From: Chitinivibrionales bacterium
GTDB lineage: Bacteria; Fibrobacterota; Chitinivibrionia; Chitinivibrionales; WJKA01
Direction of reading: 5' to 3'
Length of the DNA stretch: 42,491 bases
Assembly (NCBI GenBank): GCA_014728215.1
Contig: WJLZ01000182.1
Location: 1 to 42,491, forward strand
Shown here piece by piece: positions 3,842 through 37,371 of the stretch. A program made the position numbers and the translations under genes. Each line of letters starts with the position of its first letter. Position 1 is the first letter of the stretch. A model generated the notes under the pieces. It did no database searches, had not been told where the DNA came from, and worked only from the letters and a program-made list of their open reading frames with translations.

Positions 3842-6100
3842 CTAAAACCGGAACTCATAGGCCAGACTTACTTGATTATCCCACAGGGCTTCACTGATCA
3901 TGGTACTGATTTCTCCCCGGGCAAAGAGCGAGTGATGGGTGGTGATTTCCCAGGCCCAGCTTGACTGGAAGGCGATTTCGTTGACAGGGTCGGCGTTACG
4001 GTCGTTGTAGTGCTCGAATGTGAGGTCGAGATCGGCACGCATTTCATCGGGGATAAAGTGCCGGGTGATACCGGCGGAAGGGGAGACAAGGGTCAGACCG
4101 TAGTCGCCTTTGGAGGTGTTGACCGTTGCGGATAAACGAGTGTCGAAAGGGTAATCATCGTACCGGGTGGTAAGCGCCAGAATGCCGGTGTTGACATCCA
4201 GAGCTATATCGTCGAGCAGCGCCCCGAACTCGAGCCGGGAACGGGAATTATTGACCGAGAACGTGACAGTATTGTCGGTAATACCAAACTTCCGGGAGTA
4301 CTGAATACTCGCGCCGATTATACCGAACCGGTTGTCTCTGCTGTCGGCGGCAACCGATGAATTCACTTCTTCACTGTTGCTCATCAGGGTTATCGTTACG
4401 ATCGGCAGCGAGGGGCTCCAGAAGAGCGTTCCCATGAGGTTGAACCCGAGCATGTGGGCTGGAGCTGATTTGAGCCCGGCAAGATCGTTTCTGTACCATG
4501 AAAGCCCCCCTCGCACATAGACCCGCCGGTCAAAAACACGGACACCATTGGAAATGATGATTCCTGCCTTGTCATTCTGCTGGTTTTCATTACCCAGGGA
4601 GCGATAATTGGTTCCTGCGTAGAGATAGGTAAATTCGAATTCTTCATCGACACTCCCGATCGGCATGTGCAGTTTCAGGCCGGCGTCCCAGATAATTGAA
4701 TTGCCCAGCGCTCCGGCATTGATCGTTTCGGTAGAATCAACCGGGATGGGAAGGGGGGTGCTCGTTTCGTTAATGATAATGACCCCTTTAATGTCATTGG
4801 GCCAGATCGGCAGTGAGGCATCTTCTCCCAGAGCATCGGAGATTTCATCATTGGAACTGGGGCCGTTGGAGATATCATTAGTCAAAAAGCTGAATGCAAA
4901 GTCAGAAAAGAGAGTGATACGTCGTTTCCACAGGGAAAGGCGTGCATCGAGGCCGCCGGCGATGTTATCTTTGGGAGTAACACCTCGTATCTGCTTTTTG
5001 AATACCGTATCGGCAAGTGATGTATCGGCGCCGCTGCTGTCGAGGGAGATGTTGGGCGCCAGAAGTGATATCTGGTCGATTGACTTGGGGTTATCCTTTG
5101 CTTTAAGGATATCAAGGCCTATTCTGAATCGTTTCTCAGTGCCGACTTGAAATCGTGCGGCAAAGAGTGAGCGTTTGAATGTGCCGTCGGCATACCCGCT
5201 TACCTTGCGGTTGAATGCATTGACCGTATCGATAAAATTTTCTGCGGTATCGTACATTATCTCCGCAGTTGCCAACGCTTTATTATCAACCACATAGGGG
5301 GCGATTGCACGCTGTGTATTTCCGAATACGACGTCGATACCAAAGCGGCGATCGGATGATTCCATGTTGACCTCCAGCCCCCTTACCCGCTGATCGCGGA
5401 GTATGAACGTGTTGTAGGCGGGGAAATTGTCCCCAATACTCAAACGGAGCATATGACTGTGGCCGGCGCCGATCCTGAACCGCTGGAGGGTTTGACGGTG
5501 TTTGTCTTCATCGGTGGTAAGTGAGAGATTGTAATTGTAAAACTGTTTACCCCGGTAACCGTTCCCCGAGGCTTCGAGAATAGCCGCGCTGTGGGTGCTG
5601 TCATGGAAATTCCGGTAGCCGAGTTCACTGTTGATCCTTCCGGTATGAACGATCTTTTGGGGGGTCACCGCCTTAAGCTCCCGGCCTTTCTGTTTCATCT
5701 CCTTCCGTTTTTCATCGGAAACGGTTTCCTCTTGTGTCAGATAAAACCGCACCGAAGCATCGGCAAGTTGTTTCCGGTGAGAACCGTAGAGAATAACGGT
5801 TACGATATGAGGGCCGGCCAGGTCCGGGCGATTCATGAAATCTTCGCCGGGAATGAACGTGACCGTCGAACCGGTAATGCGTGCTTTGGAGGAGATATCC
5901 TGCTTGTCGAAAAATAGTTTGACCCGGCTAACCGGTCCACTCAGCCCGCTGTAGGCAAAGGAGACAAAGAAATCTTCGAACAGCACGAATTCATCCGGCT
6001 GCGGAGTGAGTGACACAACCTCGCTTCCCTGGAGGTGTGACGAAATCCCCGTGAGAAAGAGCAATGCAGAAAACCGGAACATAAGGGTTTGGGTGTTCAT
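3842..6100 (-). CDS. Predicted outer-membrane beta-barrel protein, last gene of a three-gene envelope operon
   Basis: A 752-residue exported protein. The signal peptide covers about residues 1-25 and is followed by an Ig-like beta domain (about 28-125). The rest is rich in alternating amphipathic strands with many aromatic and charged positions, and the chain ends in EFRF, a terminal aromatic typical of outer-membrane barrels. No named family is recognisable. The gene starts 8 nt after the stop of the FecR/B-repeat gene, with no strong Shine-Dalgarno sequence, which suggests translational coupling. Inference: the barrel could anchor or export the two upstream products. A substrate-specific porin or surface structural protein are alternatives. 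Confidence 0.7.
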   Translation of the reverse strand: MNTQTLMFRFSALLFLTGISSHLQGSEVVSLTPQPDEFVLFEDFFVSFAYSGLSGPVSRVKLFFDKQDISSKARITGSTVTFIPGEDFMNRPDLAGPHIVTVILYGSHRKQLADASVRFYLTQEETVSDEKRKEMKQKGRELKAVTPQKIVHTGRINSELGYRNFHDSTHSAAILEASGNGYRGKQFYNYNLSLTTDEDKHRQTLQRFRIGAGHSHMLRLSIGDNFPAYNTFILRDQRVRGLEVNMESSDRRFGIDVVFGNTQRAIAPYVVDNKALATAEIMYDTAENFIDTVNAFNRKVSGYADGTFKRSLFAARFQVGTEKRFRIGLDILKAKDNPKSIDQISLLAPNISLDSSGADTSLADTVFKKQIRGVTPKDNIAGGLDARLSLWKRRITLFSDFAFSFLTNDISNGPSSNDEISDALGEDASLPIWPNDIKGVIIINETSTPLPIPVDSTETINAGALGNSIIWDAGLKLHMPIGSVDEEFEFTYLYAGTNYRSLGNENQQNDKAGIIISNGVRVFDRRVYVRGGLSWYRNDLAGLKSAPAHMLGFNLMGTLFWSPSLPIVTITLMSNSEEVNSSVAADSRDNRFGIIGASIQYSRKFGITDNTVTFSVNNSRSRLEFGALLDDIALDVNTGILALTTRYDDYPFDTRLSATVNTSKGDYGLTLVSPSAGITRHFIPDEMRADLDLTFEHYNDRNADPVNEIAFQSSWAWEITTHHSLFARGEISTMISEALWDNQVSLAYEFRF

Positions 6101-6108
6101 AGATTTGA

Positions 6109-8760
6109 CTACCGGAAATCAGCCTCAAGGGTCCTGGTGCGGTTGCTGCTGTTTTCGAAAATTACTTTCAGTGATGTAATCGGCCGTTGTTCGAATTCGG
6201 CTTTTATCAGGGCGTCATCACGGCTCAGGGTTATAATTGTTGTTGCATTCTGCACATTGGAGACAAGGGCGGAGCCCCGGGTAACCCGCCATTGGGTGAA
6301 TGTATATCCATCGGCCGGGGCCGCCGTTACGGTCACCGGAATTCCCGCTTTTACCGCTTGCCGAGCATCGGTATCGATACTGCCCCGGGCGGGATCGAAC
6401 TCGATGGTCAATTGAAAGGAATCGCCGGAGACGCCTCCTGTAATCAGCGAATCGCCGGGAACAAAGAGCGCTTTAATAATGCTTTCGTCGATGCCGGGGT
6501 TGACTTCGGTTTTTGCCGCGTACGGATCTTTGAACTCAACTTCGGTACCGGAGACGGTTATCCATTGCAGAAAGGCATTGCCTTTGGCCGGAGTGGCGTC
6601 AACCGCAGACCACCGGTTGGCAACGAAATACTCCTTGCCGTCGGGCTCGGTGGAGCCAAGCCCATTTGTTAAAACGGTCATTTCGACTGTTTCGGTGGAA
6701 AAAAGTGCCTCGATTTCCATCGATTGCCGGATATTGGAGAGGCTGATCTCCGTTGATGCGATCGTGTCGGAGAGTTCGAGGTCATCGCTGTTTTCGGGAA
6801 GCTTCCATGCAATAAAGGCTGCTTTGGGATTGGGTACTGCCTGGAGGGTCAGTGAGCCGCCTTCGGGTACCTTGATATTTCCCCCGGGTTCGGTATAACC
6901 GCCCTTTGTTGCCCCCACCGTCACCGTGCAGATCCGGGCTGCAAAGATCGCATTAATCATCGCATCGGAAGTGGTAAGGGTAACCGGCGTGGTATCTTGC
7001 TGCGGGTCCTCGATATCGGCCCATCCGCTCTGAATTTGCCAGTTGAGAAATTGTTGACCATTGTCGGGCTGGGCGGTAATAATCGTTGGGGTGCCGTGGA
7101 TAATTCGTATGGGCTCAGAGGGTACCACCGAACCACCCTCTTCTGCAACGAGGGTAAGGGTAAAGGCCTTTTCGGTAATTGATGGCATAATAATGCAATC
7201 GGATTTTGCGTTAATCTCCGCTTGTTCGCTCCCTGTAACAGAAGCTCTCCCCGAGGCGACATTCCACTCCGTTAGCATATACCCATCATGAACCCCGGCA
7301 ACAACAGAGAGATGCTCTCGCCGTTTCACAAAAACCGAATCGACCGGGGTGATTTCCGCCTGGGGGTGGTCGATAATCACTACTGAATAGGGATTGTCGG
7401 AGAAATGCGCTGCAACGGTAGCATCACTGGTGTCGATTACCAGGCGGGTTGCCGCCTTGCGGGGCTTGATGATTTGCGCGGTTCCGCTTTCAATCGACCA
7501 GGAAATAAACTGATACCCATCATCAGCCTGTGCCGAAAGGGGAATGGTATCCAGATAGATCCCGGTACGGGTCTCTTTATTGGAAATACGTCCGCCTTTC
7601 TTGGCACCAGTAACAATAGTATACTGTTTCGGTATAAACCGGGCGGTTACCGAACCTCTGTCGGCCGACAGGGTAACGAGGGCGGTATCCCGGTTTATCT
7701 GTTTAACCCCCACACGCCGTCCTTTTTTCCATCCTGTGCATTCATAGCCCAGTGAAGGGAGAATCGCCAGGGGAAAGGGTGCCCCTTTTTCTATGGTTAT
7801 TGTTCCTGAAGGGGTTACTTTACCTCCATCGGTTGAAAGTACTTCGATTTGAGCAGGGGATTGCGAAAACTGTGGGGCAATGATTGAGTTTGATGAGACG
7901 ATAACCGATGTCGACTCCTGTGAAGCATCCAGAAATGCGGCATTACCGCTGATTAGTTCCCAGTGGGTAAAGCTGATGCCGATTTCCGGCACTGCCTTTA
8001 TTTCGACACCGGCACCATTAAGTGCCGCGGCTTCTCCCCGGGGTTCAGTTGTACCACCGTCGGTTTCCTGAATTGTCAGCCTGCTGGTAACCCGGGCATC
8101 ACCTTTCAGTTTCTGCATCAGCTCGATCATGCCGTACAGCGTTCGGGTCTGTCCCCGGGAGATCGATCCTGTGTAAACCCGATTCCCGGTTCCGGCATAC
8201 CCCACCGATCCGGGACCGAGCGTATGCCAGACGCCGCTTTCATCATCGGCGATTTTGGCGTTGCCGGTTAAAACATAGAATGTCGATTCGCCGCCGGCTC
8301 CGGTAACATCCAAAAAGCCGGCGCCGCGCTCGATCCAGATGAGTGTTGAGGGCGCGGTGGCGTCAAAGGAATAACCGGCGCGCGTGCGGACGTCAAACAT
8401 CACCCGACCGGAATGTACTTTGACAATTTCGCTTGAGCGGTTTCTGTCGCGGGTAAAGTAAAAATCCGCTTCGGTATCGGGGCGGAGAATAACACTGCTT
8501 CTGCTGCCGATACAGACAATTTCTGCAAAACCCCGTTTCCCGGTCTGGAAACGGGCCCCGGATACTGCGGTATACCCTTTGGTTACGATATCGCTGCTTT
8601 TTCGGTCGATATCATAGGATACCGTCACCAGCCCCCGGGTGCGGACCACAAGCGCGATTTCCTGCGGTTCCGCGGCAGAAATATGAATGCCGGCGCCTGT
8701 CAGGCAAACAAGAATCATCCCGGCACGAATTGCACGTTTTTTGTCCCGGCTTTTCATCAT
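6109..8760 (-). CDS. Exported FecR-domain protein with about eight InlB-type B-repeats
   Basis: An 883-residue secreted or periplasmic protein with a signal peptide (about 1-30). A FecR-type domain lies at roughly 35-170 (GARFQTGKRGFAEIV, then RVMFDVRT). From about 225 to the C terminus there are about eight divergent 70-80-residue repeats, each with the pattern GG-x-PSG, a central GY/F-x(2)W motif (for example GYQFISW, QQFLNW, GYTFTQW) and a closing I-x-A-x-F strand, as in the divergent InlB B-repeat family. FecR domains often sense or bind envelope ligands, and B-repeats usually build extended surface stalks. The start overlaps the upstream stop as ATGA, so all three genes are probably one transcript. 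The function of this combination is unknown. Confidence 0.8.
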   Translation of the reverse strand: MMKSRDKKRAIRAGMILVCLTGAGIHISAAEPQEIALVVRTRGLVTVSYDIDRKSSDIVTKGYTAVSGARFQTGKRGFAEIVCIGSRSSVILRPDTEADFYFTRDRNRSSEIVKVHSGRVMFDVRTRAGYSFDATAPSTLIWIERGAGFLDVTGAGGESTFYVLTGNAKIADDESGVWHTLGPGSVGYAGTGNRVYTGSISRGQTRTLYGMIELMQKLKGDARVTSRLTIQETDGGTTEPRGEAAALNGAGVEIKAVPEIGISFTHWELISGNAAFLDASQESTSVIVSSNSIIAPQFSQSPAQIEVLSTDGGKVTPSGTITIEKGAPFPLAILPSLGYECTGWKKGRRVGVKQINRDTALVTLSADRGSVTARFIPKQYTIVTGAKKGGRISNKETRTGIYLDTIPLSAQADDGYQFISWSIESGTAQIIKPRKAATRLVIDTSDATVAAHFSDNPYSVVIIDHPQAEITPVDSVFVKRREHLSVVAGVHDGYMLTEWNVASGRASVTGSEQAEINAKSDCIIMPSITEKAFTLTLVAEEGGSVVPSEPIRIIHGTPTIITAQPDNGQQFLNWQIQSGWADIEDPQQDTTPVTLTTSDAMINAIFAARICTVTVGATKGGYTEPGGNIKVPEGGSLTLQAVPNPKAAFIAWKLPENSDDLELSDTIASTEISLSNIRQSMEIEALFSTETVEMTVLTNGLGSTEPDGKEYFVANRWSAVDATPAKGNAFLQWITVSGTEVEFKDPYAAKTEVNPGIDESIIKALFVPGDSLITGGVSGDSFQLTIEFDPARGSIDTDARQAVKAGIPVTVTAAPADGYTFTQWRVTRGSALVSNVQNATTIITLSRDDALIKAEFEQRPITSLKVIFENSSNRTRTLEADFR

Positions 8761-9854
8761 CGAACATCCACTTTCTCAAGGTCCGTCTCTTCAACTAACA
8801 CTTCGGCAACAAACTGTTTCAGTTCCGCCAGATTTTTCTTCTCGCCGTTGATATAGATCGAGGCGTCGTTATCATAGCCTGCAATTTTTTCGAAAACACT
8901 TTCATCATCGATAATAAGCCGCAGCTGCTGGATTATCTCCCAGACGCGCGGGTTGGCGACTTTATAAATTGTAAAGGCATATACCGGGCTTTTGATCAAG
9001 CTGGAAGTAGCTCCCTTTATTTTTGCGTGTACATTCCAGTAATAGGTTGTACCCGGTTCGAGCTGAGGTGATGACAGTGGAATGACATAGGAAAGTGCAT
9101 TCACCGATGCACTGTGAAAGGGCGGGCGGCTGATTGCATCGGCCATGGAACCGCCGGGGACTTCTTCGTAGATGTAAATGGTAAAGATGTCTTCGGTACC
9201 ATAAACACCCGGTAGAAGATCGGACCGCCACGAAAAGACCGGACGGGGTTCATAAATAGTTTGTGCACCGCCGGATGCCTCCCGACCGGGGTAATCTGGA
9301 ATCACATAGGTTACATTGGTAATCGTGTGTTGAGAGAAATCATTGTCGATAACTATACCCGACACGCTTCTTTCGAGATCGAGCCTGAATTCGATGGCGC
9401 CGTCGGGAATACGCTGGCCGATGGAGATTTTTTCCTTGATCGAGGGATCCTTTAGTTCATACACGGTTGTTTGTATCGATGTCCGCACGGCGAGGTTGTT
9501 CTCGGTGAGAAAATCATTACTCTTGATAAGGATACTCTCGTAAGGCTTGATCGAAAATGTGTTCGACAGGCCTTCATAGATACGCTGATTTCCCTGTGTT
9601 CCCGCAGATTCACTGTCCAGATACACCCGGTAGCGGAGCCGAAGCCCGGTATAGGTCGAATCGTCGGGATTGGTTATCTGGATGACAAACATGAGCGGAC
9701 CCAGACCGGAGGCAAAAATATCGAATTGCGAAATATGGGCATTGGTCATGGTGGAAGGAAGAGAGGGGATAAGATCGACGGTTACTCCAAGTAATGGAAA
9801 CACTACAAAAAAATGGAGGATGAACAGACGGGAAAGATGCTTTTTGAAACTCAT
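8757..9854 (-). CDS. Exported protein with Ig-like strands, first gene of the envelope operon
   Basis: A 365-residue protein of unknown family. I start it at the ATG at 9854 (MSFKKHLSRL), not at the in-frame ATG at 9914: it is preceded by a GGAAAG Shine-Dalgarno-like sequence and is followed directly by a good signal peptide ending near LLGVTV. The body is all-beta with Ig/FN3-like segments, such as YYWNVHAKIKG, the usual last strand of extracellular beta-sandwich repeats. A predicted helical, acidic tail follows (WEIIQQLRLI onward). Its TGA stop overlaps the next ATG by 4 bp. It is divergent from the VIT-domain gene. Role unknown; the context suggests an envelope complex with the two genes downstream. 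Confidence 0.65.
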   Translation of the reverse strand: MSFKKHLSRLFILHFFVVFPLLGVTVDLIPSLPSTMTNAHISQFDIFASGLGPLMFVIQITNPDDSTYTGLRLRYRVYLDSESAGTQGNQRIYEGLSNTFSIKPYESILIKSNDFLTENNLAVRTSIQTTVYELKDPSIKEKISIGQRIPDGAIEFRLDLERSVSGIVIDNDFSQHTITNVTYVIPDYPGREASGGAQTIYEPRPVFSWRSDLLPGVYGTEDIFTIYIYEEVPGGSMADAISRPPFHSASVNALSYVIPLSSPQLEPGTTYYWNVHAKIKGATSSLIKSPVYAFTIYKVANPRVWEIIQQLRLIIDDESVFEKIAGYDNDASIYINGEKKNLAELKQFVAEVLVEETDLEKVDVR

Positions 9855-10105
9855 ATGCTTTCCGTTATTTGACCAAAGACCAGTATGTTGTCTGTAATAT
9901 ATAATGTGATACATATAAGGTGGGTATGATTTTTACTAGAATTCAGTTAAATACAGGTGTTCGCCGTTGCCTTTTCATACATGCTCCTCTTAAATATCAG
10001 TGTTTCCATCCAGAAAACGCTTTTTACTCTCCGAAAGCATTTTCCTGCAAAATATTTTGTATTATTAAAGGTGAAAAAGATTCATAACCTTTTCCCGGAG
10101 GGATC
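9855..10105. other. Divergent promoter region between the envelope operon and the VIT-domain gene
   Basis: This 251-bp region must drive the leftward three-gene operon and the rightward VIT gene. It is AT-rich, but I could not find a convincing -35/-10 pair for either direction. CGGAGGGATC just before the ATG at 10106 is a strong ribosome binding site for the rightward gene. The annotated leftward start at 9854 leaves the longer 9914 start as a leader frame only. Confidence 0.45.
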
Positions 10106-12322
10106 ATGATAAGAAAAATGTTTCTGTCTGCTTTACTGCTTTTTAATGTTGTTTTTGCAATCGGCTATCAGCATGCTACCTTTAGAAGTCAATCAACTCA
10201 GGGGGTACCCTGGAATGGAACATCGAAGATAATCCGGGAATTATTCCGGATAACCGTTTATCCGGATTATCTGGATATTGAACTGGATTGGGAATTTGAT
10301 GTTAATGGGGTGGAACCGGATTCATTTAAAAATGCTCTGGAGATTGTCGGCAATATCAATCTTGAGAGAGGTTCTGTTGTTACAGGAATGCTGCTGTGGA
10401 ATGGTGATGATATCCTGAAAGCAAAACTAAAATCCGTTGAAGAAGCCCGGAAGCAGTACGAAGAAGTCGTCGACCGGGATGCCGATATTCCTCCTCCGCC
10501 ACGAGACCCGGTTATCTTCGAATACGGTTGGGCCCCTGATAATTATTATATGTCAATTTTTCCGGTAAGCTGGGGCGGTACGCGAAAAATGCGAATGCGC
10601 TATCTTATTCCATCACAAGAGTTGAATGGCACAACGAAGATCGGATTTCCGCACGCCTTTTCGGATAATGCTGAATATGTGATTTACAAAGGATCGGAGG
10701 TATCTTCATTCTACCTCGAATCATCTTCGGGAGCCATGCAGGAAATAACTGCGGATTCGATGACCCTTGAGCCCGGTGCAGGAAGGTATTCGTATAACTG
10801 TTTTCGATATATCACACCGCAGTTGTTTACCCAAACAGGTTCACGTTTGTATGTAAGTAATTTTTCCACTGCACGATTGAGCGGCGAAATGGTCCACTTT
10901 ATCGGCATGACTCCTGATAATATCGTTTTTAATTCTGCTTTAAAAGAGGAATTTGTCATTCTCTGGCGATGGAACAATAGTGAAGTACTCAGCAGGTATG
11001 GCAAACAGATCGTGGAACAATCGAATCTTCTGCAGCAATTTCTGATTGCACTTCACGAGAAAAAGAAAAAGGTTGCTTTGATTATCGATAAAGGCGGCAA
11101 TGAACGGATCATTTTCAATCTCGATCGCAAAGGCGGTCCGGAGTATAGCCGGATGATGAGCTTCTTATATGAGATCGGTACACGGCAGTTTGGAAATCCT
11201 CAGTCCGGCAGGGGACCGCAACTCACTCAGGCACAGATCGACAGCATTGTTGCGAAATCATTTTCTGAATTCGAAAATGCGTTGCAGGAGGCACTCTCGC
11301 TTTTTACAAATAACACTGGAGTGCTCAGGCATCTTATTTTGGTGACGGCTGGACCCGAGTGGATTCGGGAAAAGAGAAATGTCGGATCGATAGCCTGGGA
11401 TCCATCCATCGAAGTCTCCGGCCTTATAGAACATTTGCAGAAATACCAGTGGTTTAATGCATCGTTATATCCTCCACAAAAGCTTTTCTGGCCTGGTGTG
11501 GATATTAATGCATTTGCTGCAATGTATAATCATTCGCTGACTGCAACTGCGGTATTATCGAATGGAACAAACTCGTGCAGCACTTATGTACGTTCGGATA
11601 CGCGAAGCTCCTATTTCAATTACCGGCAGAGATACCGGATGCCTTCGTATGAACTGAAGCTCTTTACTGCGGAGCCTCTGGAACGCAGGATACACTGGAA
11701 TATCTATCTTAACGGAACATCCTTTGCTTCCTTTACCGAAAAACCATTGGCAATAGAGAGTGGTGATCCCATGCAATATGCACGGCTGGTGGGGGCAGAT
11801 CGGAATTTATTGTTTCTTGGATCAGAGAAACCGTCATCGATGGCCGCCACGTTGGGTTTTGTTGATGAGGAATATGCGTTGCTTGCGCTTGAAGAAGATG
11901 TGCTTCCGGATTCAGTGGCGGAACATTATGTCACTCGTGGGGTGCCGGACCTTCTGGCTGAAGATATCTTTCCGTCAGCTGATGACACATTAGCTTCGAT
12001 TGAAGCTGAGGGTAATTCGGTTACTGATGTAAAAAATACCAGTCTGAATGGTAAAAAGCTGGTGAATGGAATTCATGCGCAGGTAACCGGACGCAGTCTT
12101 GTGTTGCATTTTGACTGGAGTGTGATCGAAAATCCCGAACAACTATCAATAATGCTTTTCACTGTTACCGGGAAGCTTATTCGGCGATGGAATTACACCG
12201 ATATTGCAGGGATGAACCGGGTTGAATGGACAGCGGTTGATAACGCTGTTTCGCACAGCTCGTATATCCTGAAAATCAGAGCGGACAACGAGATCGCCGG
12301 GAAAGTGATAACGTTGCTGTGA
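10106..12322 (+). CDS. Secreted VIT-domain protein with degenerate vWA-like domain and C-terminal sorting-like module
   Basis: A 738-residue surface protein. The signal peptide spans about 1-19. A VIT (vault/inter-alpha-trypsin) domain covers about 45-172, recognisable from EEARKQYEEVV (112-122), DNYYMSIFPV (145-154) and a basic MRMRYLIPS strand. Residues about 322-450 look like a von Willebrand A fold, but the expected metal-site DxSxS is replaced by DKGGN (328-332), so a functional MIDAS is doubtful. The last ~55 residues (LFTVTGKLIRRW onward) form a FlgD-Ig/T9SS-like sandwich. The strong RBS CGGAGGG supports the start. It is divergent from the envelope operon, and its stop lies 6 bp from the dxs stop. 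VIT-vWA proteins usually act in adhesion or extracellular matrix; a specific ligand cannot be given. Confidence 0.75.
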   Translation: MIRKMFLSALLLFNVVFAIGYQHATFRSQSTQGVPWNGTSKIIRELFRITVYPDYLDIELDWEFDVNGVEPDSFKNALEIVGNINLERGSVVTGMLLWNGDDILKAKLKSVEEARKQYEEVVDRDADIPPPPRDPVIFEYGWAPDNYYMSIFPVSWGGTRKMRMRYLIPSQELNGTTKIGFPHAFSDNAEYVIYKGSEVSSFYLESSSGAMQEITADSMTLEPGAGRYSYNCFRYITPQLFTQTGSRLYVSNFSTARLSGEMVHFIGMTPDNIVFNSALKEEFVILWRWNNSEVLSRYGKQIVEQSNLLQQFLIALHEKKKKVALIIDKGGNERIIFNLDRKGGPEYSRMMSFLYEIGTRQFGNPQSGRGPQLTQAQIDSIVAKSFSEFENALQEALSLFTNNTGVLRHLILVTAGPEWIREKRNVGSIAWDPSIEVSGLIEHLQKYQWFNASLYPPQKLFWPGVDINAFAAMYNHSLTATAVLSNGTNSCSTYVRSDTRSSYFNYRQRYRMPSYELKLFTAEPLERRIHWNIYLNGTSFASFTEKPLAIESGDPMQYARLVGADRNLLFLGSEKPSSMAATLGFVDEEYALLALEEDVLPDSVAEHYVTRGVPDLLAEDIFPSADDTLASIEAEGNSVTDVKNTSLNGKKLVNGIHAQVTGRSLVLHFDWSVIENPEQLSIMLFTVTGKLIRRWNYTDIAGMNRVEWTAVDNAVSHSSYILKIRADNEIAGKVITLL

Positions 12323-24518: not shown

Positions 24519-24679
24519 CCAACAAAAGGGTTTACCCTCGATAAAAACCTGGCTGTTGAAATTTACCGATGATGCCTGGGCCGCGACGAGAACTTCGCCG
24601 GCCCAGGCGCAGGTTTCAGGACCTCCTTACGTCTGCAATCACCGATGAAGCCGTATTTTCTCTGAACAATGGCTTTCAT
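24519..24679 (-). pseudogene. Frameshifted N-terminal remnant of a quinone oxidoreductase / MDR alcohol dehydrogenase
   Basis: Starting at ATG 24679 the frame reads MKAIVQRKYG then EVLKPAPG, the standard opening of zinc-independent MDR oxidoreductases. It then loses register. In a shifted frame GEVLVAAQASSVNFNSQVFI and EGKPF continue exactly as the family does. So a single frameshift splits the gene, and nothing of the NADPH-binding domain remains downstream. The ATG overlaps the stop of the bactofilin-like gene (TAATG), so the original gene was the next cistron of that operon. Confidence 0.65.
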
Positions 24680-25863
24680 TATTCTTCTCCCCGTTCATGT
24701 GTTTGTGTCAATTCCTTTTTGCCTTCGTCAATAGCCAGGTCCTTCTTGAAAAGAAAGGAGATAAAAACTCCCCATCCAAGTGAAGAGAGAAAGAGAAAAC
24801 CCAAAAAGTTAACAAATGGTATTAGTATCGTTATGGCACCGGCACAAGCACCGATCAGAAAATGATAGGTCCGCTTTTCGATATTCCATTTAAATTTAAG
24901 TGCAATGTATTTGCCCAGAAGGGTTGTGCCGATAACATTGGCAAAATAGAAAAGGGGCACAAAGGCAAGCATCAGGACAAAGGCAAAGGGTATCGTGACA
25001 ACAAGGGCAAGGCAGAGGACAATAATCGCAGGATACATCAGCACCGGAACGAGTCCCCACAGTGCGGTGTTCCAGAAGGTCCTTTCGGAAAGCTTCTCTT
25101 TCAGTTTTCCAAATACCGGAAGGAGAAGAAGTAGACTTCCCACTATAATAAACGAGATGGTAAAGCCTATCAAAATGAAAAACTGAATGGATTTCATTCT
25201 TTTGGCAGGAAATTTCCATTCCTTATCCAGTGCATGCTTCTCGTCGATGGTGATCGTTCCGGTGACTCGGGCCCGTTCTTCATCACTCAACTTTTCTTTG
25301 GCGCCATAGGTGAAATTACCGTTGATTCTTCCGTTTTCTTCGATGATAATCCTGCCGCCATAGGCAACGACATCCCCATTTATCTCATCATTAATAATTA
25401 TTTCACCCGCAGCGGCATAGAGATTGCCGTTAAGGGGGCCATCGATTGCAAGTTTAGCGCATCCGACAAAAAGATTCCCGTCAACCACGGCGGAATCACT
25501 CAGATGCAGCGACTTACATCCTATAAAACTGTTGTCCATGACCGTACCGTCTATGAGTATATTCATTCCTCCGGTAAAAATGCCATTACCCGTTTCACCC
25601 GAGAATATTAATTTTTCGCATAAAGCAAAGAGTGTGAGGTCTGTTCTGCCGCGGAATGTGAGTGCTTTGCCGAGAAAGATAAGGTCTTCAGCCGCACCGG
25701 TAAAATTCAGTTCATGACCCAAAAAGAGATAATCCTCTTCGTAAATTCCCGATTCAGTCCTGATACCATCCTCTTCTTCGCAATGCATATGAATTTCTAT
25801 TGCAAAGGTTGCCAGGCTTATGCAAAGCGCCATCCCGATGCCGGTAATCAATTTAGTTTTCAA
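24679..25863 (-). CDS. Bactofilin-like (polymer-forming) protein with a C-terminal membrane domain
   Basis: A 394-residue envelope protein. A signal peptide or N-terminal membrane anchor covers about 1-22. Residues about 40-190 form short beta-helix turns (VVDGNLFVGCAKLAIDGPLN, GNLYAAAGEIIINDEINGD) like bactofilin/polymer-forming cytoskeletal modules. From about 225 there are four to five membrane helices with a KRM-SIQFFILIGF entry and a glycine-rich final pair. The start is TTG at 25863: AAAGGAGG (25869-25876) lies 5 nt upstream, an ideal RBS. It was probably co-transcribed with the frameshifted oxidoreductase. Bactofilins shape cells or place complexes; a membrane-fused form with a signal peptide would act on the outer face instead. 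Confidence 0.7.
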   Translation of the reverse strand: MKTKLITGIGMALCISLATFAIEIHMHCEEEDGIRTESGIYEEDYLFLGHELNFTGAAEDLIFLGKALTFRGRTDLTLFALCEKLIFSGETGNGIFTGGMNILIDGTVMDNSFIGCKSLHLSDSAVVDGNLFVGCAKLAIDGPLNGNLYAAAGEIIINDEINGDVVAYGGRIIIEENGRINGNFTYGAKEKLSDEERARVTGTITIDEKHALDKEWKFPAKRMKSIQFFILIGFTISFIIVGSLLLLLPVFGKLKEKLSERTFWNTALWGLVPVLMYPAIIVLCLALVVTIPFAFVLMLAFVPLFYFANVIGTTLLGKYIALKFKWNIEKRTYHFLIGACAGAITILIPFVNFLGFLFLSSLGWGVFISFLFKKDLAIDEGKKELTQTHERGEE

Positions 25864-28876: not shown

Positions 28877-31795
28877 ATGAATGATGATGAGATGATTCTG
28901 GAACTTGTAGCGGAATCCCGGGAGCATCTGTCGGAGATCGAGCCCGATTTGCTTGAGTTGGAACAAAAGGGGAGTAATGTATCCGATGAGCTGCTCAATC
29001 GGATTTTCAGGGCTGTGCACAGCATCAAGGGCGGGTTCGGCTTTTACGGCAAAAAAACCATTGTCGAGTTGTCACATTCCATGGAGAATGTTCTCTCACG
29101 GCTCCGGGATCGGGAACTGACTATTGATGCTGAAATAACCGATGCGTTGCTTGAGGGTATCGATAAACTTCGGGTGCTTCTGGATGATATCGATGTTTCG
29201 GATGAGGCGTCGATTGAAAAAGAAGTTGCTGCCCTTGCGCCCTATTTAAAGGAAAATGTGAAGGGAAAAACGAGTACGGCCAAGGAGAGCAAACCCAAAG
29301 CACAAAGGAAAACGACTGGAAAAAAAGGAAGAAGCGCTTCCGGAAAAAAGACGGAGTCCAAAGCTGAAGAATCCGAAGACCCTCTTGCCGGTGTACGGAA
29401 ACTGCATTCCGATATAACTGAAGAGTGTATTCAGGAAGCGGTACGTAACGGACAAATGCTGTATCAGGTAACCGTTACGCCTTCCGACAATATTATCAAC
29501 AGTGATAAGAGCTTCAAGGAGGTTGTCGCTACCTGGGAAAATTTCGGGCCAGTGATCAGCACGACTCCTCCGCGGGAAGTTCTCGAAAAATCATCGCCCT
29601 CAGACGATATACTGCAAAAAGATATTTCGGTCATAATTGCAACGGTTCTCGAGCCCGACTTGATTGCCGAAGCACTTGGTATAGGTGAAGAGCAGATTCT
29701 GACGCTGGATCTGGCCGATTATAAAAAGAAATATCAGGAGCAGCGACAACAGGAGCGAGAAAAGGGTGGGACCGCTCAGAAGGATTCATCGCAGAAAACT
29801 GAAAAAGCGGAGAACGGTCGGAAAAAAGAGAGGGTCACCATTGAAGAAGCTATCCGGGTCAAAACCGGCTTGCTCAATAATCTCATGAACTACGCCGGAG
29901 AGCTGGTCCTCGCCCGCAACCAGTTGCTTCAGGCAACCCAGCAAAACCTGGCAAAAAGCGAGAAGGCCGAAGGGATTATTCGCGCCGCGGTTGAAGCTGT
30001 CAAGCAGGTCTATGAGGGCCATTGCAAAGAAATAAACAGTGAATTGGGACCGATTCCCCAGGGGTATCTGGATACTGTCGCTAATTCGGTGGCCGGCGCG
30101 CTCAATTTCGCGGTCAACGATGTATCCGGGATCAACGGTATTACTCAGAATATCAATATGGTAACGTCGGTGCTCCAGGAAAACATAATGCAGACCAGGA
30201 TGCAGCCGGTTTCGGTAGTATTCAGCAAGTTCCCCCGGGTTATCCGGGACCTTGCCCGCAAGCTCGGCAAAAACATTGTTCTTCAGCAATTCGGTCAGGA
30301 CGTTGAGCTTGACAAGTCGATTATCGAGCTGTTGTCGGACCCCTTGACACACCTGGTGCGAAACAGCGCCGATCACGGAATCGAGGCGCCTGAAGAACGG
30401 GAGCGTAACGGTAAACCTGAACAGGGGACGATAACGTTGAAGGCATATCAGGAAGGGGGGAAGGTATTTATCGAGATTGTCGACGACGGAGGCGGTATCG
30501 ATGTTATTCGGGTAAAGCAATCGGCGATTGAAAAGGGGCTTGTGGATGAAGAAAAGGTTTCGGAGCTTACCGACAAAGAGATACAGTCTTTTATCTTTGC
30601 CCCGGGTTTTTCATCCGCTAAGGCCGTCAGCGAGGTTTCGGGCCGGGGCGTGGGTATGGATGTTGTCAAATCCAATATCGAAAAACTCGGTGGGACTATC
30701 GAACTCAATTCCGAATATGGACGGGGAACGACCGTGACCCTTGCCATGCCCTTGACACTGGCAATTATTCCATCGTTGATAGTTTCTTCCGGCGGGCGAC
30801 GTTTTGCCATACCGCAGGTAGCTCTTGATGAAGTAGTCAGGCTTCGCGCGGGTGATGTTACCCGGCAAATCGAACGGGTACACAATGCCGAAGTGTTGCG
30901 TTTACGAGGAATGCTGCTTCCTCTGGTTCGTCTTTCCGATGTTTTGGGGTTTGAGCCAACATATGTCGACCCGCAAACAGGGGAGCGCCGGGCCGACAGC
31001 CGCAAGCGATGGTCCGACCGGAGAGGGCTTCCTCAGGAACAGAATGGTTCTGAGACGCCCGATGAGCGCCGGAAAGGAGCCATCGACCGTCGAAACCGCC
31101 TTGCCAACGCGGTGAAAATTGCGGTGCTGCGCGTGGAGGATAATGAGTTCGGACTCGTGGTCGATAATGTACAGGACAGCGAAGAGATCGTGGTCAAGCC
31201 GCTTCCGGGATATCTGAAAAAGAGCGCTTGCTTTGCCGGCGCCACTATAATGGGGGACGGCAAGGTGGCGATGATCCTCGATCCGGGCGGTATAGCAGCT
31301 ATGGCAAATCTTCAATTTCACGAAATTGCCGAAGAAGCAGCGCAGCGGAAGCAGCGGGAAAAGAAAATCCGGCAGGAGAGAGGCGATGAAGCCACGATGC
31401 TTCTCTTCTCCCTGGGAGGAGACGAACATTTTGCGGTGGACCTTTCCCATATCGCCCGGATCGAAAAACGGACAGGAAAGGAAATCGAAAGTGTTGGAGC
31501 CAGAAAATTTCTCAAGTATGACGACAGTACCCTGGAATTGTTCTGGTTGGAAAATATTATGCCGGTGCAATCCTCTTTGGAGATTGGTGATGAGTTTTTT
31601 GTGCTGGTACCGAAAAACACTCAGCGGCGTATCGGTTTTGTTGCCGCCCGGGTTGAAGATACCATGCAGACCCGGTTGGCGCTCGATAAAGAATCGGTGA
31701 GCGGTCCGGGTATCAAAGGATCATCGCTGGTAAATGATACAATGACCATTGTCGTGGATATGCCCGGGGTGCTTGACGCAATTGAGCAGCGCTGA
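28877..31795 (+). CDS. cheA: Chemotaxis histidine kinase CheA with two CheW-like domains
   Basis: A 972-residue CheA, longer than the usual ~650-700. An HPt domain opens it: AVHSIKGGFGF with phospho-acceptor H48. A Lys/Ser-rich linker (about 125-165) and a P2-like domain (170-280) follow. Dimerisation (VKTGLLNNLMNYAGELVLA) and HATPase (LVRNSADHGIE, VDDGGGID, GRGVGMDVV) come next, then a CheW domain interrupted by an Arg-rich insert of about 45 residues (RRADSRKRWSDRRG). A second CheW-like domain (about 838-972, ATMLLFSLGGDEHFAVDL to the end) is added at the C terminus. It phosphorylates CheY and CheB in the receptor array. First gene of the operon; cheW starts 40 nt later. Confidence 0.93.
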   Translation: MNDDEMILELVAESREHLSEIEPDLLELEQKGSNVSDELLNRIFRAVHSIKGGFGFYGKKTIVELSHSMENVLSRLRDRELTIDAEITDALLEGIDKLRVLLDDIDVSDEASIEKEVAALAPYLKENVKGKTSTAKESKPKAQRKTTGKKGRSASGKKTESKAEESEDPLAGVRKLHSDITEECIQEAVRNGQMLYQVTVTPSDNIINSDKSFKEVVATWENFGPVISTTPPREVLEKSSPSDDILQKDISVIIATVLEPDLIAEALGIGEEQILTLDLADYKKKYQEQRQQEREKGGTAQKDSSQKTEKAENGRKKERVTIEEAIRVKTGLLNNLMNYAGELVLARNQLLQATQQNLAKSEKAEGIIRAAVEAVKQVYEGHCKEINSELGPIPQGYLDTVANSVAGALNFAVNDVSGINGITQNINMVTSVLQENIMQTRMQPVSVVFSKFPRVIRDLARKLGKNIVLQQFGQDVELDKSIIELLSDPLTHLVRNSADHGIEAPEERERNGKPEQGTITLKAYQEGGKVFIEIVDDGGGIDVIRVKQSAIEKGLVDEEKVSELTDKEIQSFIFAPGFSSAKAVSEVSGRGVGMDVVKSNIEKLGGTIELNSEYGRGTTVTLAMPLTLAIIPSLIVSSGGRRFAIPQVALDEVVRLRAGDVTRQIERVHNAEVLRLRGMLLPLVRLSDVLGFEPTYVDPQTGERRADSRKRWSDRRGLPQEQNGSETPDERRKGAIDRRNRLANAVKIAVLRVEDNEFGLVVDNVQDSEEIVVKPLPGYLKKSACFAGATIMGDGKVAMILDPGGIAAMANLQFHEIAEEAAQRKQREKKIRQERGDEATMLLFSLGGDEHFAVDLSHIARIEKRTGKEIESVGARKFLKYDDSTLELFWLENIMPVQSSLEIGDEFFVLVPKNTQRRIGFVAARVEDTMQTRLALDKESVSGPGIKGSSLVNDTMTIVVDMPGVLDAIEQR

Positions 31796-31835
31796 CGGCG
31801 CCGGCAGATCGTATAAGAGAGGGAAGGAACGCTTT

Positions 31836-32309
31836 ATGCAGCATCAATATGCCACATTTTACCTTGGTGACGGAATGTTTGCAGTTAATGTACTTCTGGT
31901 GCAGGAAATCAACAGGAATCTTGAGATAACCAACGTTGATCCCTCACCCGACTTTGTGATCGGCCTGATGAATCTCCGTGGACAAATCGTAACAATCCTC
32001 GATCTGGGGGTGCGCCTGGGTCTTGAAAAACAGCAAAGGGGTTATGGCTCATGCTGCGTGATCCTCAAGACAAATGCCGATATCAAACTGCTTGACGCTA
32101 TTAATGACGTCAACGGGCAGACATCTGAAGATATTGTCGGTCTTCTCGTAGACAATGTCGGTGATATGATTGAAGTTGAAGATTCTGAAATTGAAAAACC
32201 GCCTGCAAATGTCAATGGTGTTGAAAGTGTATATCTCCGCGGGGTAATTAAGCGTGATGAACAACTTGTGGCCCTCATGGATATGCGCCGGATCCTGGAA
32301 ATAAGTTGA
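31836..32309 (+). CDS. cheW: Chemotaxis coupling protein CheW
   Basis: A 157-residue CheW that joins receptors to CheA. I start at ATG 31836 ([13 protein letters not shown]), preceded by GGAAGGA; the longer in-frame start at 31749 lies inside cheA and has no [18 protein letters not shown] opens subdomain 1, [17 protein letters not shown] is the conserved core around the receptor-binding arginine, and [13 protein letters not shown] and [17 protein letters not shown] complete the fold. It is followed 46 nt later by the first chemoreceptor gene. Confidence 0.93.
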
Positions 32310-32355
32310 ATTTATTACTGATGTCATTATACAACATGAGAAAGGAATGCCTGGT

Positions 32356-34191
32356 ATGACACTCACGATTAAAATGAAACTGCTGGTGTGGGCATTATTC
32401 GGTGTTATAGTTGTCTTTTTAACAGGGTTTATCGGTCTCAACGGTATGAGTTCGATGACCAGAATGCGCAATGAAGTAGAAAAAAAAGAAGATCTTCACA
32501 ATCAGCTTGTCGAACGGGAAATCGACCACCTTCAGTGGGCACAGAAAGCGGGCAGTTTTCTCCATAAAGGGCATATCAAAACGCTTGATGTGGAAAAAGA
32601 TTTTCATCAATGCGCCCTCGGCAAATGGTATTACGGTAAAAACAAAGAGACGGTTCTTGAAGAACATCCGGAATTAGAACACGCGCTGGAGCGACTTGAA
32701 GAACCCCATAAAGAGCTTCACTCCTCAGTCGTGACAATAGAAGATTACCTTCAAAAGGGGGAGCGAGACAGCGCCGAGCAGGTGTATGCGCAAACAACAA
32801 TCGATAATTTGAAGGCTGTACAAACCATATTGCATTCCATACAATCATCGCTTGAAGAAGAGATCGGGGTAATTGAAGAAAAGACCGAACGAAGCATACG
32901 GCGTACCAGGACCGTTGCCGGAGTGAGTATGGTGCTTTTTGTTTTCATTATTATTGTAGTAGGCTATTTTATCTGGCGGTCGATCAATACCCCGCTCATG
33001 CGGACGATCGAGCGGTTGAAAGATATTGCTCAGGGCGACGGTGATTTAACGAAGCGTATGCCGATGAACAAAGTTAACTGTTCTTCGCAGAAGCAGTGCA
33101 ACAAAACCGATTGTCCCGAATACGGCCGGGAAGCACAATGCTGGGATACGGTCGGTTCCAATGCCCCGGGAGAAATAACCTGTCCGTCAATTTTAACCGG
33201 AAAGCTGAAAAGCTGTAATGAGTGTTCGGTCATGCAGGGGGCTATTCGAACAGAAATGGATGAGCTTTCGGCGTGGTTCAATACCTTTATCGGCAGGGTA
33301 TCGCAAATCATAAAAAAGATCGCCGGAAACGCTGCGACCCTTTCCGGTTCTTCGGAAGAGCTATCCGCGACGTCGAACCAACTTGCCGCAAGCGCCGAAG
33401 AAGTGAGCAATCAATCCAACACGGTGGCGTCGGCAAGCGAACAGGCGACCACTAATGTCAATGGTATCGCTTCGGCGGCGGAAGAGATGTCGTCATCGGT
33501 CAATGCGGTGGCGTCATCCATTGAAGAAATGAATGCCTCGCTCAATGAAGTGGCGAAAAGTTGTCAGAAAGAATTGGATGTTGCAAAGGACGCCAATACA
33601 AAGGCGTCGTCAACAAAACTTCAGATGGAAAAACTGGGGACATCTTCAAGAGAAATCGGTAAAGTGGTCGATACAATCAAGGATATTGCCGACCAGACCA
33701 ACCTTTTGGCGCTCAATGCCACGATCGAAGCCGCCTCCGCGGGCGAGGCGGGCAAGGGATTTGCCGTTGTTGCCAATGAAGTCAAAGAACTTGCCAAGCA
33801 AACCGCCGAGGCTACCGATCAGATCGGCAGGCAGATCGAACAGATACAAAACGATACCGGAGAATCGGTAAGCGCAATCGATGAAATTGCCGGTGTGATA
33901 GAGCAGGTTACCGAGATATCCCAAACCATTGTCAGTGCAGTCGAAGAGCAGTCGTCGACGGTGAGTGAGATATCGGGCAATGTCGGCGGCGCAGGCAATG
34001 CGTCATCGGAAATAGCCCGGAATGTACAGGAGTCGGCAAGCGGTTTGACCGAAATCTCATCGAATATTCAGGGGATCAATGCTGCCGCGGGTGATACGGC
34101 CAAGGGAGTCGGCCATATAAGCGACAGCGCCCGGGAGCTTGCAAAACTTTCGGCCCAGCTAAAAGATATTGTAAAGCAATTTAAAATATAG
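32356..34191 (+). CDS. Chemoreceptor (MCP) with periplasmic CZB zinc domain and Cys-rich HAMP insert
   Basis: A 611-residue receptor. I start at 32356 ([10 protein letters not shown]) because AAAGGA lies 9 nt before it; the ATG at 32347 has no spacing. TM1 is about 9-29 and TM2 about 188-207. Between them sits a chemoreceptor zinc-binding (CZB) domain with H58 in DHLQW, C86 in CALGKWYYG, and H118/H122 in EPHKELH. After TM2, the HAMP helix is split by a Cys-rich stretch with C242, C248, C253, C262 (followed by W), C276, C287 and C290, resembling 'two-CW' modules. A standard signalling domain follows, with [20 protein letters not shown] and [14 protein letters not shown]. It likely senses zinc, redox or chlorine-type signals, an inference from CZB family work. 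The sister gene follows. Confidence 0.9.
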
Positions 34192-34279
34192 GTATAATGG
34201 GTGAGATACAATGAATCGATCGACTTGCGTTTTAAAGAATAGAAAATGTACCTGATAAATTTTTCCGAGGAGATGAGAT

Positions 34280-36271
34280 ATGGCACGTCATGCTAGTCCC
34301 GGGCCGGCATTGTTCGGGAACATTGTGAATCGTTTCACCGGCAGCGGAAAAACCGTTCGCGGAAAGCTTTTTCTCCCTGTCTATGTGCAGATTGCGGGCC
34401 TGATTGTGGTCGCCGCCGTTATAGTGTTCTCCCTTCGTTCGGCAAAGAAAAACCTTCATCGGACAAATACTATTACGACACTGTCGACGGAGGTCAAATC
34501 ACTGATTGAGCTTTCGGTTGAACAGTATTTTAATGCGGTTCCCTCGTCGGAGCGGGAAGAAGCGTTTCTCAGGAGTCTCAGTCAATCGGCACAGCATTTC
34601 GATGAAGCCCATATCAAAGTGGACCCGGATGAAATACGGCAATTATTCGTGGAAATCGGCGAGAAAAAGAGACAAAATCAAAATATCGAAAAAAAGGTCA
34701 TGAAACTGTCGAACGCATCGATAGAGCAATCTGACGGCTATATCCGTCAGGTGGTCGAAAAAATGATAAAACAATCGCAGTATGTCAGTCCTCTTGAGAA
34801 GCAGGTGATTGTCGGCGCCAATATTAATACCAGCTCGAATTTGAAAATCCAGAACCTCTTTTCCCGCATCGTTTATGACCCGTCGGCAAAACAGGAACTC
34901 CAAGCATTCCTCGAACAAGCTATGGAAAACGTTGAAGTTGACAAGAAGAGGTTGGCCGGCACGCCTTTTCAGCACATGGCTGAAGCCGCCGGTGAATCGA
35001 ACAGGCAGATGCAGGCCCTGGCGGGAGAGTATACGACCAATATCGAACATATAAATTCCGCATATAATAAACTGTTTTCCAGGCTTTCATCGGTAGACAA
35101 GGCATTGATGAATACAAAGACCGAATTGCAAAAGAGCACTGTCTCGGTAATCAGTACGTCATTTCTGCTCATCGGGATAACGGTAATTGCGGCAATCGTC
35201 GTTGTGGTTCTCCTCAACAGCGTTCTGGGAGTGCAGATTTCAAATTCGCTCGGGAGAATGTCGGGAATGTTGCGTGACATTTCGGAGGGAGAAGGCGATT
35301 TGACAAAGCGCCTGGAATCGGACTCCGGGGATGAGATCGGTGACATGGCCCGCTATTTTAATAATTTTGTAAACAAATTACAGGGCATAATCACAAAAAT
35401 TGCCGGTGATGCCGAAAGTGTTGCTTCATCTTCCAGTGAATTGTCGACAACATCGGTTCAGATTGCATCCCATGCCGATGAGATGAATTCTCAGTCAACT
35501 ACTGTTGCCTCGGCGGCAGAACAAGCGACCGCCAATGTGAATGGTATAGCTTCTGCGGCCGAAGAAATGTCGACATCCATGAGCACCGTCGCATCATCGA
35601 TTGAAGAAATGAGTGCTTCTCTCAATGAGGTAGCGAAAAACTGCCAAAAAGAACTCGCTGTTGCCCGGGACGCCAACAGCAGGGCTTCGGCAACAAGGCA
35701 ACAGATGGAAAAAATGGATGCATCTTCCCGGGAAATCGGCAAAGTGGTCGATACGATTAAAGACATTGCCGATCAGACTAATCTTTTAGCGCTCAATGCC
35801 ACGATCGAAGCGGCTTCAGCCGGCGATGCCGGTAAAGGGTTTGCCGTTGTTGCCAATGAAGTCAAGGAGCTTGCAAAGCAGACCGCGCAGGCAACCGATG
35901 AAATCAGCAGGCAGATCGAACAGATGCAGAGCGATACTGAAGAATCGGTGAATGCGATCGAGAAAATCGCCGAAGTTATCGAACAGGTTACCGAGATTTC
36001 GCAGACCATAGTGAGCGCTGTTGAAGAACAATCGGCTACAATCAATGAAATATCCGGCAATGTGGGCGGCGCGAGTAATGCATCGTCGGAGATCGCGCGC
36101 AATGTGCAGGAATCGGCCAGTGGGCTATCCGAAGTCTCTTCGAATATACAGAGTATCAACACCGCTTCGGGCGAAACCGCACAGGGGATGGAATTGATAA
36201 AGGAGAGTGCTCAGGGGCTCTCGCAACTTGCCGAACAACTGAACCAGGTGGTGAACCAGTTTAAAGTGTAA
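34280..36271 (+). CDS. Chemoreceptor (MCP) with a helical periplasmic sensor domain
   Basis: A 663-residue receptor. After a basic N-terminal tail, TM1 is about 35-52, a long all-helical periplasmic domain (about 55-290) is rich in Gln/Lys/Glu, and TM2 lies near 292-318. HAMP (about 320-370, [21 protein letters not shown]) and a standard signalling domain follow, whose tip ([20 protein letters not shown]) differs only slightly from that of the preceding receptor. GGAG lies 7 nt upstream. The ligand is unknown. Conserved nucleotide blocks in the signalling half indicate a tandem duplication with a replaced sensor half. Confidence 0.9.
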
Positions 36272-36297
36272 AGGAAAAAACCGGAAGAAATAGATTC

Positions 36298-37371
36298 ATG
36301 GCCCTACGCACACTTATAATCGACGATACCATTATCTGGCGCAAACTCGTGTCGGATATCGCTGGAGAGTTCGCGGATCTTGAAATTGCGGGCACAGCGC
36401 CCAACGGTGAGATTGCCCTGAAAAAGATGGAGCAAAATCCGGTTGATCTGGTGTTTTGCGACGTTCACATGCCGGGTCTTGACGGGGTGGAGACCCTCAA
36501 GCGCATCCGGGACGAGTGTCCGCAAACGCTCGTGGTCATGATGAGCGGGATCAGTACCCGGAATGCGGATGTAACGATCAGGGCCCTTCAGATGGGAGCG
36601 ATCGATTTTATTCGCAAGCCGGACGGCAGAGCGCCAGAAGAAAACAGGGAACGGCTCCGCAAGGATATCGCATCGGTCCTTCGTCTGGCGCGGATCAAAA
36701 TAAACACCATGGGAATTGACAAGAGGGTTTCAGGTAAGGTTCAAAAATCCGCTGCACTCGCCGGGGCGGTAACAAAAGCTCCGGTTCCCCGTTCCTTCGC
36801 TATTGTCGCTGTCGGCGTCTCGACCGGCGGACCGGAAGCGCTCAGTAAGCTTATCCCCACGTTGCCCGCCTCGTTGCCTGTCCCGGTTTTACTGGTCCAG
36901 CATATGCCGCCGTCATTCACTCGGTCCCTGTCCGAAAGTCTCGACCGGAAATCGGCGCTTACCGTGGTGGAGGCTGAAGAACATATGGAGGTGAAAAAAG
37001 GAACAGTTTATATCGCACCGGGTGGAAGGCATATGACTGTTCGGGAGAAGGACAAGAAAGTGGTAATAGGGCTCAATGACAGTCCGCCGGAAAATTCCTG
37101 CAGACCGTCGGTGGATGTTCTGTTCCGATCGGTGGCAAATCTTTACGGCAACAGAGGTGTTCTTGCTGCTGTCCTGACCGGAATGGGAAGTGATGGCGCG
37201 GCAGGGGTTCGGGCACTGAAGCGAAAAGGGTGTTTCTGTATTACCCAAGAAGAAAAATCCTGTGTGGTGTACGGCATGCCCCGGGCGGTCGATGAAGCAG
37301 GGATGTCGGATCTTTCGATCCCCATTGAGAGCATTGCCGAAATAATGGCGCGAAAGACCGGTAGCAGATGA
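36298..37371 (+). CDS. cheB: Chemotaxis protein-glutamate methylesterase CheB
   Basis: A 357-residue methylesterase/glutamine deamidase that reverses CheR methylation of the receptors. The receiver domain has DD (9-10), phospho-acceptor D55 in FCDVHMPG and K107 in RKPDG. The catalytic domain shows S175 in VGVSTGGPE, H202 in VQHMPPSFT and D299 in GMGSDGAAG, the complete triad. It starts at ATG 36298, 26 nt after the second receptor. cheR follows after 84 nt. The regulated domain is complete, so classical adaptation is expected. Confidence 0.95.
   Translation: MALRTLIIDDTIIWRKLVSDIAGEFADLEIAGTAPNGEIALKKMEQNPVDLVFCDVHMPGLDGVETLKRIRDECPQTLVVMMSGISTRNADVTIRALQMGAIDFIRKPDGRAPEENRERLRKDIASVLRLARIKINTMGIDKRVSGKVQKSAALAGAVTKAPVPRSFAIVAVGVSTGGPEALSKLIPTLPASLPVPVLLVQHMPPSFTRSLSESLDRKSALTVVEAEEHMEVKKGTVYIAPGGRHMTVREKDKKVVIGLNDSPPENSCRPSVDVLFRSVANLYGNRGVLAAVLTGMGSDGAAGVRALKRKGCFCITQEEKSCVVYGMPRAVDEAGMSDLSIPIESIAEIMARKTGSR

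Follow-up and report, generated by a model that had tools for sequence, protein, structure and literature searches.

A conserved Ig-FecR-barrel gene trio in Fibrobacterota as a possible outer-membrane sensor or relay module

Do an Ig-like protein, a FecR protein with B-repeats and a putative outer-membrane barrel, encoded back to back in a Chitinivibrionales genome, belong together, and what might such a combination do in the cell envelope? The window that raises this question (the whole stretch of DNA analysed, 42,491 nucleotides of contig WJLZ01000182.1) carries these genes on its minus strand as an operon-like trio, g1-g2-g3 (Table 1). An earlier note on this DNA had described three tightly coupled genes for exported proteins, and the three open reading frames were confirmed where it had placed them, with an ATGA overlap joining g1 to g2 (8757-8760) and a spacing of 8 nt between g2 and g3. 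The start of g1 is the ATG at 9854, which opens a clean signal peptide; an in-frame start further upstream, at 9914, is also available. As judged by eye, all three proteins begin with a Sec-type signal peptide and lack a lipobox. The neighbours of the trio in the window encode a GH39 protein, an alpha/beta hydrolase, a VIT protein and a DXP synthase. The divergent neighbour (10106-12322) is a weak VIT-domain protein whose C-terminus resembles a secretion-sorting tail. Elsewhere, the window holds a bactofilin-domain protein (24679-25863; marginally over the Pfam cut-off) and a chemotaxis-type cluster (28877-37371) comprising a CheA-like kinase with CheW and Hpt domains, two chemoreceptors, one of which has a zinc-binding CZB domain, and CheB.

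Table 1. Features of the g1-g2-g3 locus (positions in the window; residues are those of the encoded protein).
Feature	Position	Strand	Description
g1	9854-8757	-	exported, 365 aa; two Ig/FN3-like domains, then a small alpha/beta domain at the C-terminus
g1 second Ig/FN3-like domain	8964..9257	-	residues 200-297; best-conserved part of g1
g1 C-terminal domain	8760..8957	-	residues 300-365; NGxxxSxxEL motif
g2	8760-6109	-	exported, 883 aa; FecR and B-repeats
g2 FecR domain	8257..8550	-	residues 71-168; PF04773, E=2.6e-6
g2 eight-B-repeat array	6190..8079	-	residues 228-857; missing in short homologues
g2 C-terminal strand-turn-strand tail	6112..6183	-	residues 860-883; conserved with or without B-repeats
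g3	6100-3842	-	752 aa; predicted outer-membrane beta-barrel, family without Pfam model
g3 N-terminal Ig-like domain	5735..6019	-	residues 28-122, ahead of barrel; structure model, medium confidence
g3 barrel region	3845..5644	-	residues 153-752; final beta-signal YEFRF

The distribution of the trio among related genomes speaks to whether the three genes form a unit. In single-sequence searches covering 61 relatives, g1 and g3 turn up in almost identical sets of genomes, and a profile search of 168 Fibrobacterota genomes found the g3 barrel in 21 genomes from 8 families, a count that leaves out two marginal matches (G014 and G026). The order g1-g2-g3 is kept at every locus whose contig spans the trio, with intergenic gaps or overlaps mostly of -4 to +8 nt; in four further genomes (G001, G002, G009 and G039) the trio genes lie at contig ends in an arrangement that fits this order. 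The same main groups appear in the g1 and g3 trees, and the named records with the trio are Fibrobacterota MAGs, mostly Chitinivibrionales. Since the trio is conserved across the phylum, a chance arrangement is excluded, and separation of the three genes in related genomes, which the earlier note had named as a finding that would speak against its proposal, did not materialise. By sequence comparison, the trio is a real, conserved, co-inherited unit.

Several trio loci have additional features. The f11 genome G053 contains two tandem copies of the trio (L038:7846-16189), and downstream of the operon in both G053 and G055 (f11) lie genes for small, low-complexity exported proteins that contain a KSNVSNN motif (L038:7846-16189, L039:11628-13968). 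Immediately before g1, f11 genomes carry a gene for a TPR protein (L038:16220-17578, L039:6092-7345, L100:5251-6534). In G020 the barrel gene is split into two overlapping ORFs (L034:4083-6229), which reflects either an assembly frameshift or a broken gene.

The two outer members of the trio are exported protein families that are widespread and have no Pfam model. Pfam gives g1 nothing beyond a weak Ig hit (E=0.005) and g3 no family at all, and no homologue of either protein passes the Pfam cut-off. The structure model of g1 (mean pLDDT 65) shows two Ig/FN3-like domains followed by the small C-terminal domain, while the AF2 model of g3 (mean pLDDT 57) has an Ig-like N-terminus (28-122), a helix, and then many long alternating strands. 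The C-terminus of g3 (...VSLAYEFRF) reads as a beta-signal, with aromatic or hydrophobic residues at -1/-3/-5/-7/-9, and a YEFRF/Y or YE(L/M/R)FF ending is kept in nearly all complete homologues; g3 thus has the C-terminal beta-signal and amphipathic strands that are general criteria for outer-membrane beta-barrels. Foldseek returned outer-membrane barrels (ushers, TonB-type transporters, porins) in all 50 rows listed for g3, with E down to 1e-7, TM below 0.4 and ushers ranking first among those rows. Because the beta-signal, the long alternating model strands and the all-barrel Foldseek rows coincide, the predicted barrel class of g3 (not the subtype) is well supported, with closure of the barrel only modestly modelled. 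Foldseek matches to ushers (g3) and to animal FN3 proteins (g1) were taken as indicating fold class only, because the models are weak. Plug, STN, receptor, usher and autotransporter models had no Pfam match to g3 (11 homologues scanned), usher and pilus chaperone Pfam families matched none of the g1 or g3 homologues, and PDB sequence searches with the g1 profile, the g3 profile and g2 gave no convincing match. The barrel announced in the earlier note is thus upheld by the beta-signal, AF2 and Foldseek, and the prospect it raised of a known porin family finds no counterpart in Pfam.

The central protein, g2, is more variable. Pfam recognises both domains that had been read from its sequence: FecR (Table 1) and divergent InlB B-repeats (PF18998, E=1.4e-52), of which a purpose-built repeat profile, used for all repeat counts, finds eight in the window's protein. 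Eight B-repeats are likewise found in g2 of f1, f2, f4 and f6 (with one profile count of nine), and f7 has 2 and 5 in two species of a single genus. In f10, f11 and f14, g2 is short (223-243 aa), with FecR only and zero B-repeats, the trio being otherwise kept. Long and short forms have a C-terminal tail in common (e.g., LEVDFxNxxxExxTLEVEYExxF), which indicates that the B-repeats (2, 5 or mostly 8 in the window's order) are an insert between the FecR head and this conserved tail. For most B-repeats, cross-family identity is highest on the diagonal (e.g., 59% between R6 of the window and R6 of G002; 50% between R7 and R7 of G039), compared with mostly 15-36% (one pair 50%) between repeats within a protein. 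The eight-repeat array is therefore orthologous position by position, and is thus old and fixed in length. Between G000 and G001 identity is about 56% in the FecR part of g2 and 73-74% in g1 and g3; by this comparison, g2 evolves faster than its neighbours. No leucine-rich repeats and no wall or GW anchor were found in g2 with Pfam, and among the papers searched none combines the terms B-repeat and FecR.

A possible link to signalling comes from adenylate cyclase genes beside some trio loci. In G020 a gene for a CHASE2 plus class III cyclase protein lies on the same strand 68 nt upstream of g1, whereas in G043 such a gene, also on the same strand, overlaps the end of g3 with its start, so that the cyclase is found at opposite ends of the trio; in G016 a CHASE2 cyclase gene at a contig edge is consistent with trio linkage. 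The three cyclases form one clade (91/82), split (100/99) from the cyclases linked to a LysM-FecR protein. Two independent joinings of trio and cyclase were considered and dropped, since with a single clade one old linkage followed by rearranged gene order is simpler. The LysM-FecR/CHASE2 cyclase/FHA locus (G000:C163:2495-7503; L059) is separate from the trio and conserved through the order. Cyclases of the trio-linked clade are absent from the window genome, where the CHASE2 cyclase belongs to the LysM-FecR locus, and CHASE2 is missing altogether from most trio-bearing f11 genomes, so CHASE2 signalling is not obligatory. Gene neighbourhoods thus indicate that the CHASE2 linkage is real in two families (f7, f10) and optional overall.

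A related FecR-barrel pair was found outside the Fibrobacterota. In a genome-contig match from a second phylum (L119, 439-3641), a FecR gene with glucodextranase-B-type Ig domains overlaps a barrel gene; about 22 of the 40 genomes of the group have a strong match to the barrel, essentially in single copy, and the FecR gene is upstream of it in the loci read (L119, L144-L152; genomes G168-G191). Comparison with hhalign shows this barrel to be a homologue of g3 (probability 99.3%, E=3.4e-20). The pair is like the trio in its homologous single-copy barrel with a FecR gene immediately upstream, and differs in having the Ig-like domains fused behind FecR, no g1 gene and no B-repeats. No cyclase adjoins it. 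The FecR-barrel core is accordingly old. One other candidate, a barrel encoded after a FecR plus glucodextranase-B protein in G026 (L111:6983-12021), was set aside as a trio relative because its barrel belongs to another widespread family with matches in 139 of the 168 genomes.

The interpretation favoured here, tentatively and at somewhat less than an even chance, is that the trio is an outer-membrane sensor or relay module that has no dedicated cyclase in the window's genome. The g3 barrel would be an outer-membrane protein whose Ig-like N-terminus faces the periplasm, and g1 and g2 would be its periplasmic partners, a placement suggested by signal peptides judged by eye and the lack of lipobox or anchor. 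The conserved g2 tail may dock on g1 or g3, and the module may sense a surface state or ligand and pass the signal inward by way of the FecR protein. For f7 and f10, the CHASE2 adenylate cyclase of the operon would be the inner partner, and in the window lineage the eight-repeat array could act as a rigid spacer across the periplasm toward peptidoglycan or an inner-membrane partner. Complex formation, tail docking and the direction of signalling are inferred steps, and confidence in the structure models is low to medium. Counted in favour are the conserved order in 8 families, the agreeing g1 and g3 trees, the adjacency of CHASE2 in G020 and G043, and the separate locus in genomes of the same order that pairs a LysM-FecR protein with a CHASE2 cyclase plus FHA gene. 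Counted against are the absence of a trio-clade cyclase from the window genome, the CHASE2-free f11, the cyclase-free pair of the second phylum, and the finding in Sinorhizobium meliloti that the FecR gene smc02177, a target of Clr, is not needed for signal perception (PMC5498481). It is also possible, if doubtful, that the trio represents an undescribed trans-envelope receptor class spanning at least two phyla, in which a barrel and a FecR protein are combined with an interchangeable inner partner (a CHASE2 cyclase or none) and an interchangeable FecR spacer, which may be missing, built of Ig domains, or a B-repeat ruler of fixed length across the periplasm.

The cyclase-free loci would fit with a purely structural role, in which the trio links the outer membrane to peptidoglycan or the inner membrane, FecR binding the wall or a protein and the B-repeats serving as spacer, with no signalling. 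The fixed spacer length and the LysM carried by a related FecR protein from another locus of the genome agree with such a tether, but a patchy presence in 21 of 168 genomes is odd for an essential one and the operonic cyclase of f7 and f10 would need a separate explanation; this reading is rather unlikely. The earlier note had pictured a surface stalk of B-repeats monitored or anchored by FecR and held by the barrel. Stated more fully, FecR would be an N-terminal retention plug and the B-repeats would pass through the g3 barrel and extend outward, as in a LapA-type adhesin or an intimin-like protein split over two genes. A FecR head and tandem Ig- or B-type repeats beside a large barrel, the ushers among the top Foldseek matches of g3, and a weak match of the second-phylum FecR protein to the LapA retention module and Ca-stabilised adhesin repeats lend it some plausibility. 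Its premise of a conserved unit stands, but the B-repeats are not the core of that unit, being absent from three families (f10, f11, f14), and the "stalk" looks like a late addition; four families keep a fixed number of about eight repeats, each conserved individually, whereas surface arrays vary; usher TM-scores are low, no Pfam usher or autotransporter model matches g3, and g2 has no lipobox or anchor. An outward stalk is therefore quite unlikely. Transport, with g3 as a substrate-specific porin or exporter and g1 and g2 as accessory or substrate proteins, is very unlikely: the large barrel has ushers, TonB-type transporters and porins as its best structural neighbours, and the small exported proteins after the operon in two f11 genomes could be cargo, but plug and usher models match none of the 11 g3 homologues and no common transport or catabolic genes lie beside the trio. 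Classical FecI-FecR-FecA cell-surface signalling through an ECF sigma factor, a link that the earlier note had suggested looking for, has a FecR domain and a barrel to recommend it but is excluded as scarcely credible because the gene anatomy contradicts it: the N-terminus of g2 is a signal peptide and not a cytoplasmic anti-sigma region (only FecR 71-168 and the B-repeats match), g3 lacks plug and STN domains, and among the trio's immediate neighbours in the window there is no ECF sigma gene, the extra signalling gene, where present, being a CHASE2 adenylate cyclase.

Comparison with described systems places the sensor or relay interpretation in context. InlB and other internalin adhesins share only the B-repeat type with g2, which is missing their leucine-rich repeats and anchor. 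The LysM-FecR/CHASE2/FHA locus resembles the f7 and f10 trio loci in encoding a FecR protein with a CHASE2 cyclase, but has no barrel, and its cyclases belong to another clade. Clusters in Campylobacterota comprise a CHASE2 adenylate cyclase, a FecR outer-membrane protein, a TPR protein and a phosphodiesterase (PMC9239204), which recalls the exported FecR protein beside the CHASE2 cyclase in f7 and f10 and the TPR gene beside the f11 trio; here, however, the invariant components are a barrel and an Ig-like protein, neither with a Pfam model, whereas the cyclase may be missing, as it is beside the window's trio. In S. meliloti, the outer-membrane barrel NsrA is a sensor upstream of the CHASE2 cyclases CyaK and CyaD (PMC13001267, PMC7529298), an arrangement like that proposed here, although the NsrA barrel occupies residues 600-1200 of a larger protein and its likeness to g3 is drawn from published description. 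Relay from an outer-membrane event to an inner-membrane cyclase is largely unknown outside S. meliloti NsrA, and the conserved barrel-FecR-Ig unit, sometimes with its own CHASE2 cyclase, offers a defined set of proteins with which such a relay could be tested.
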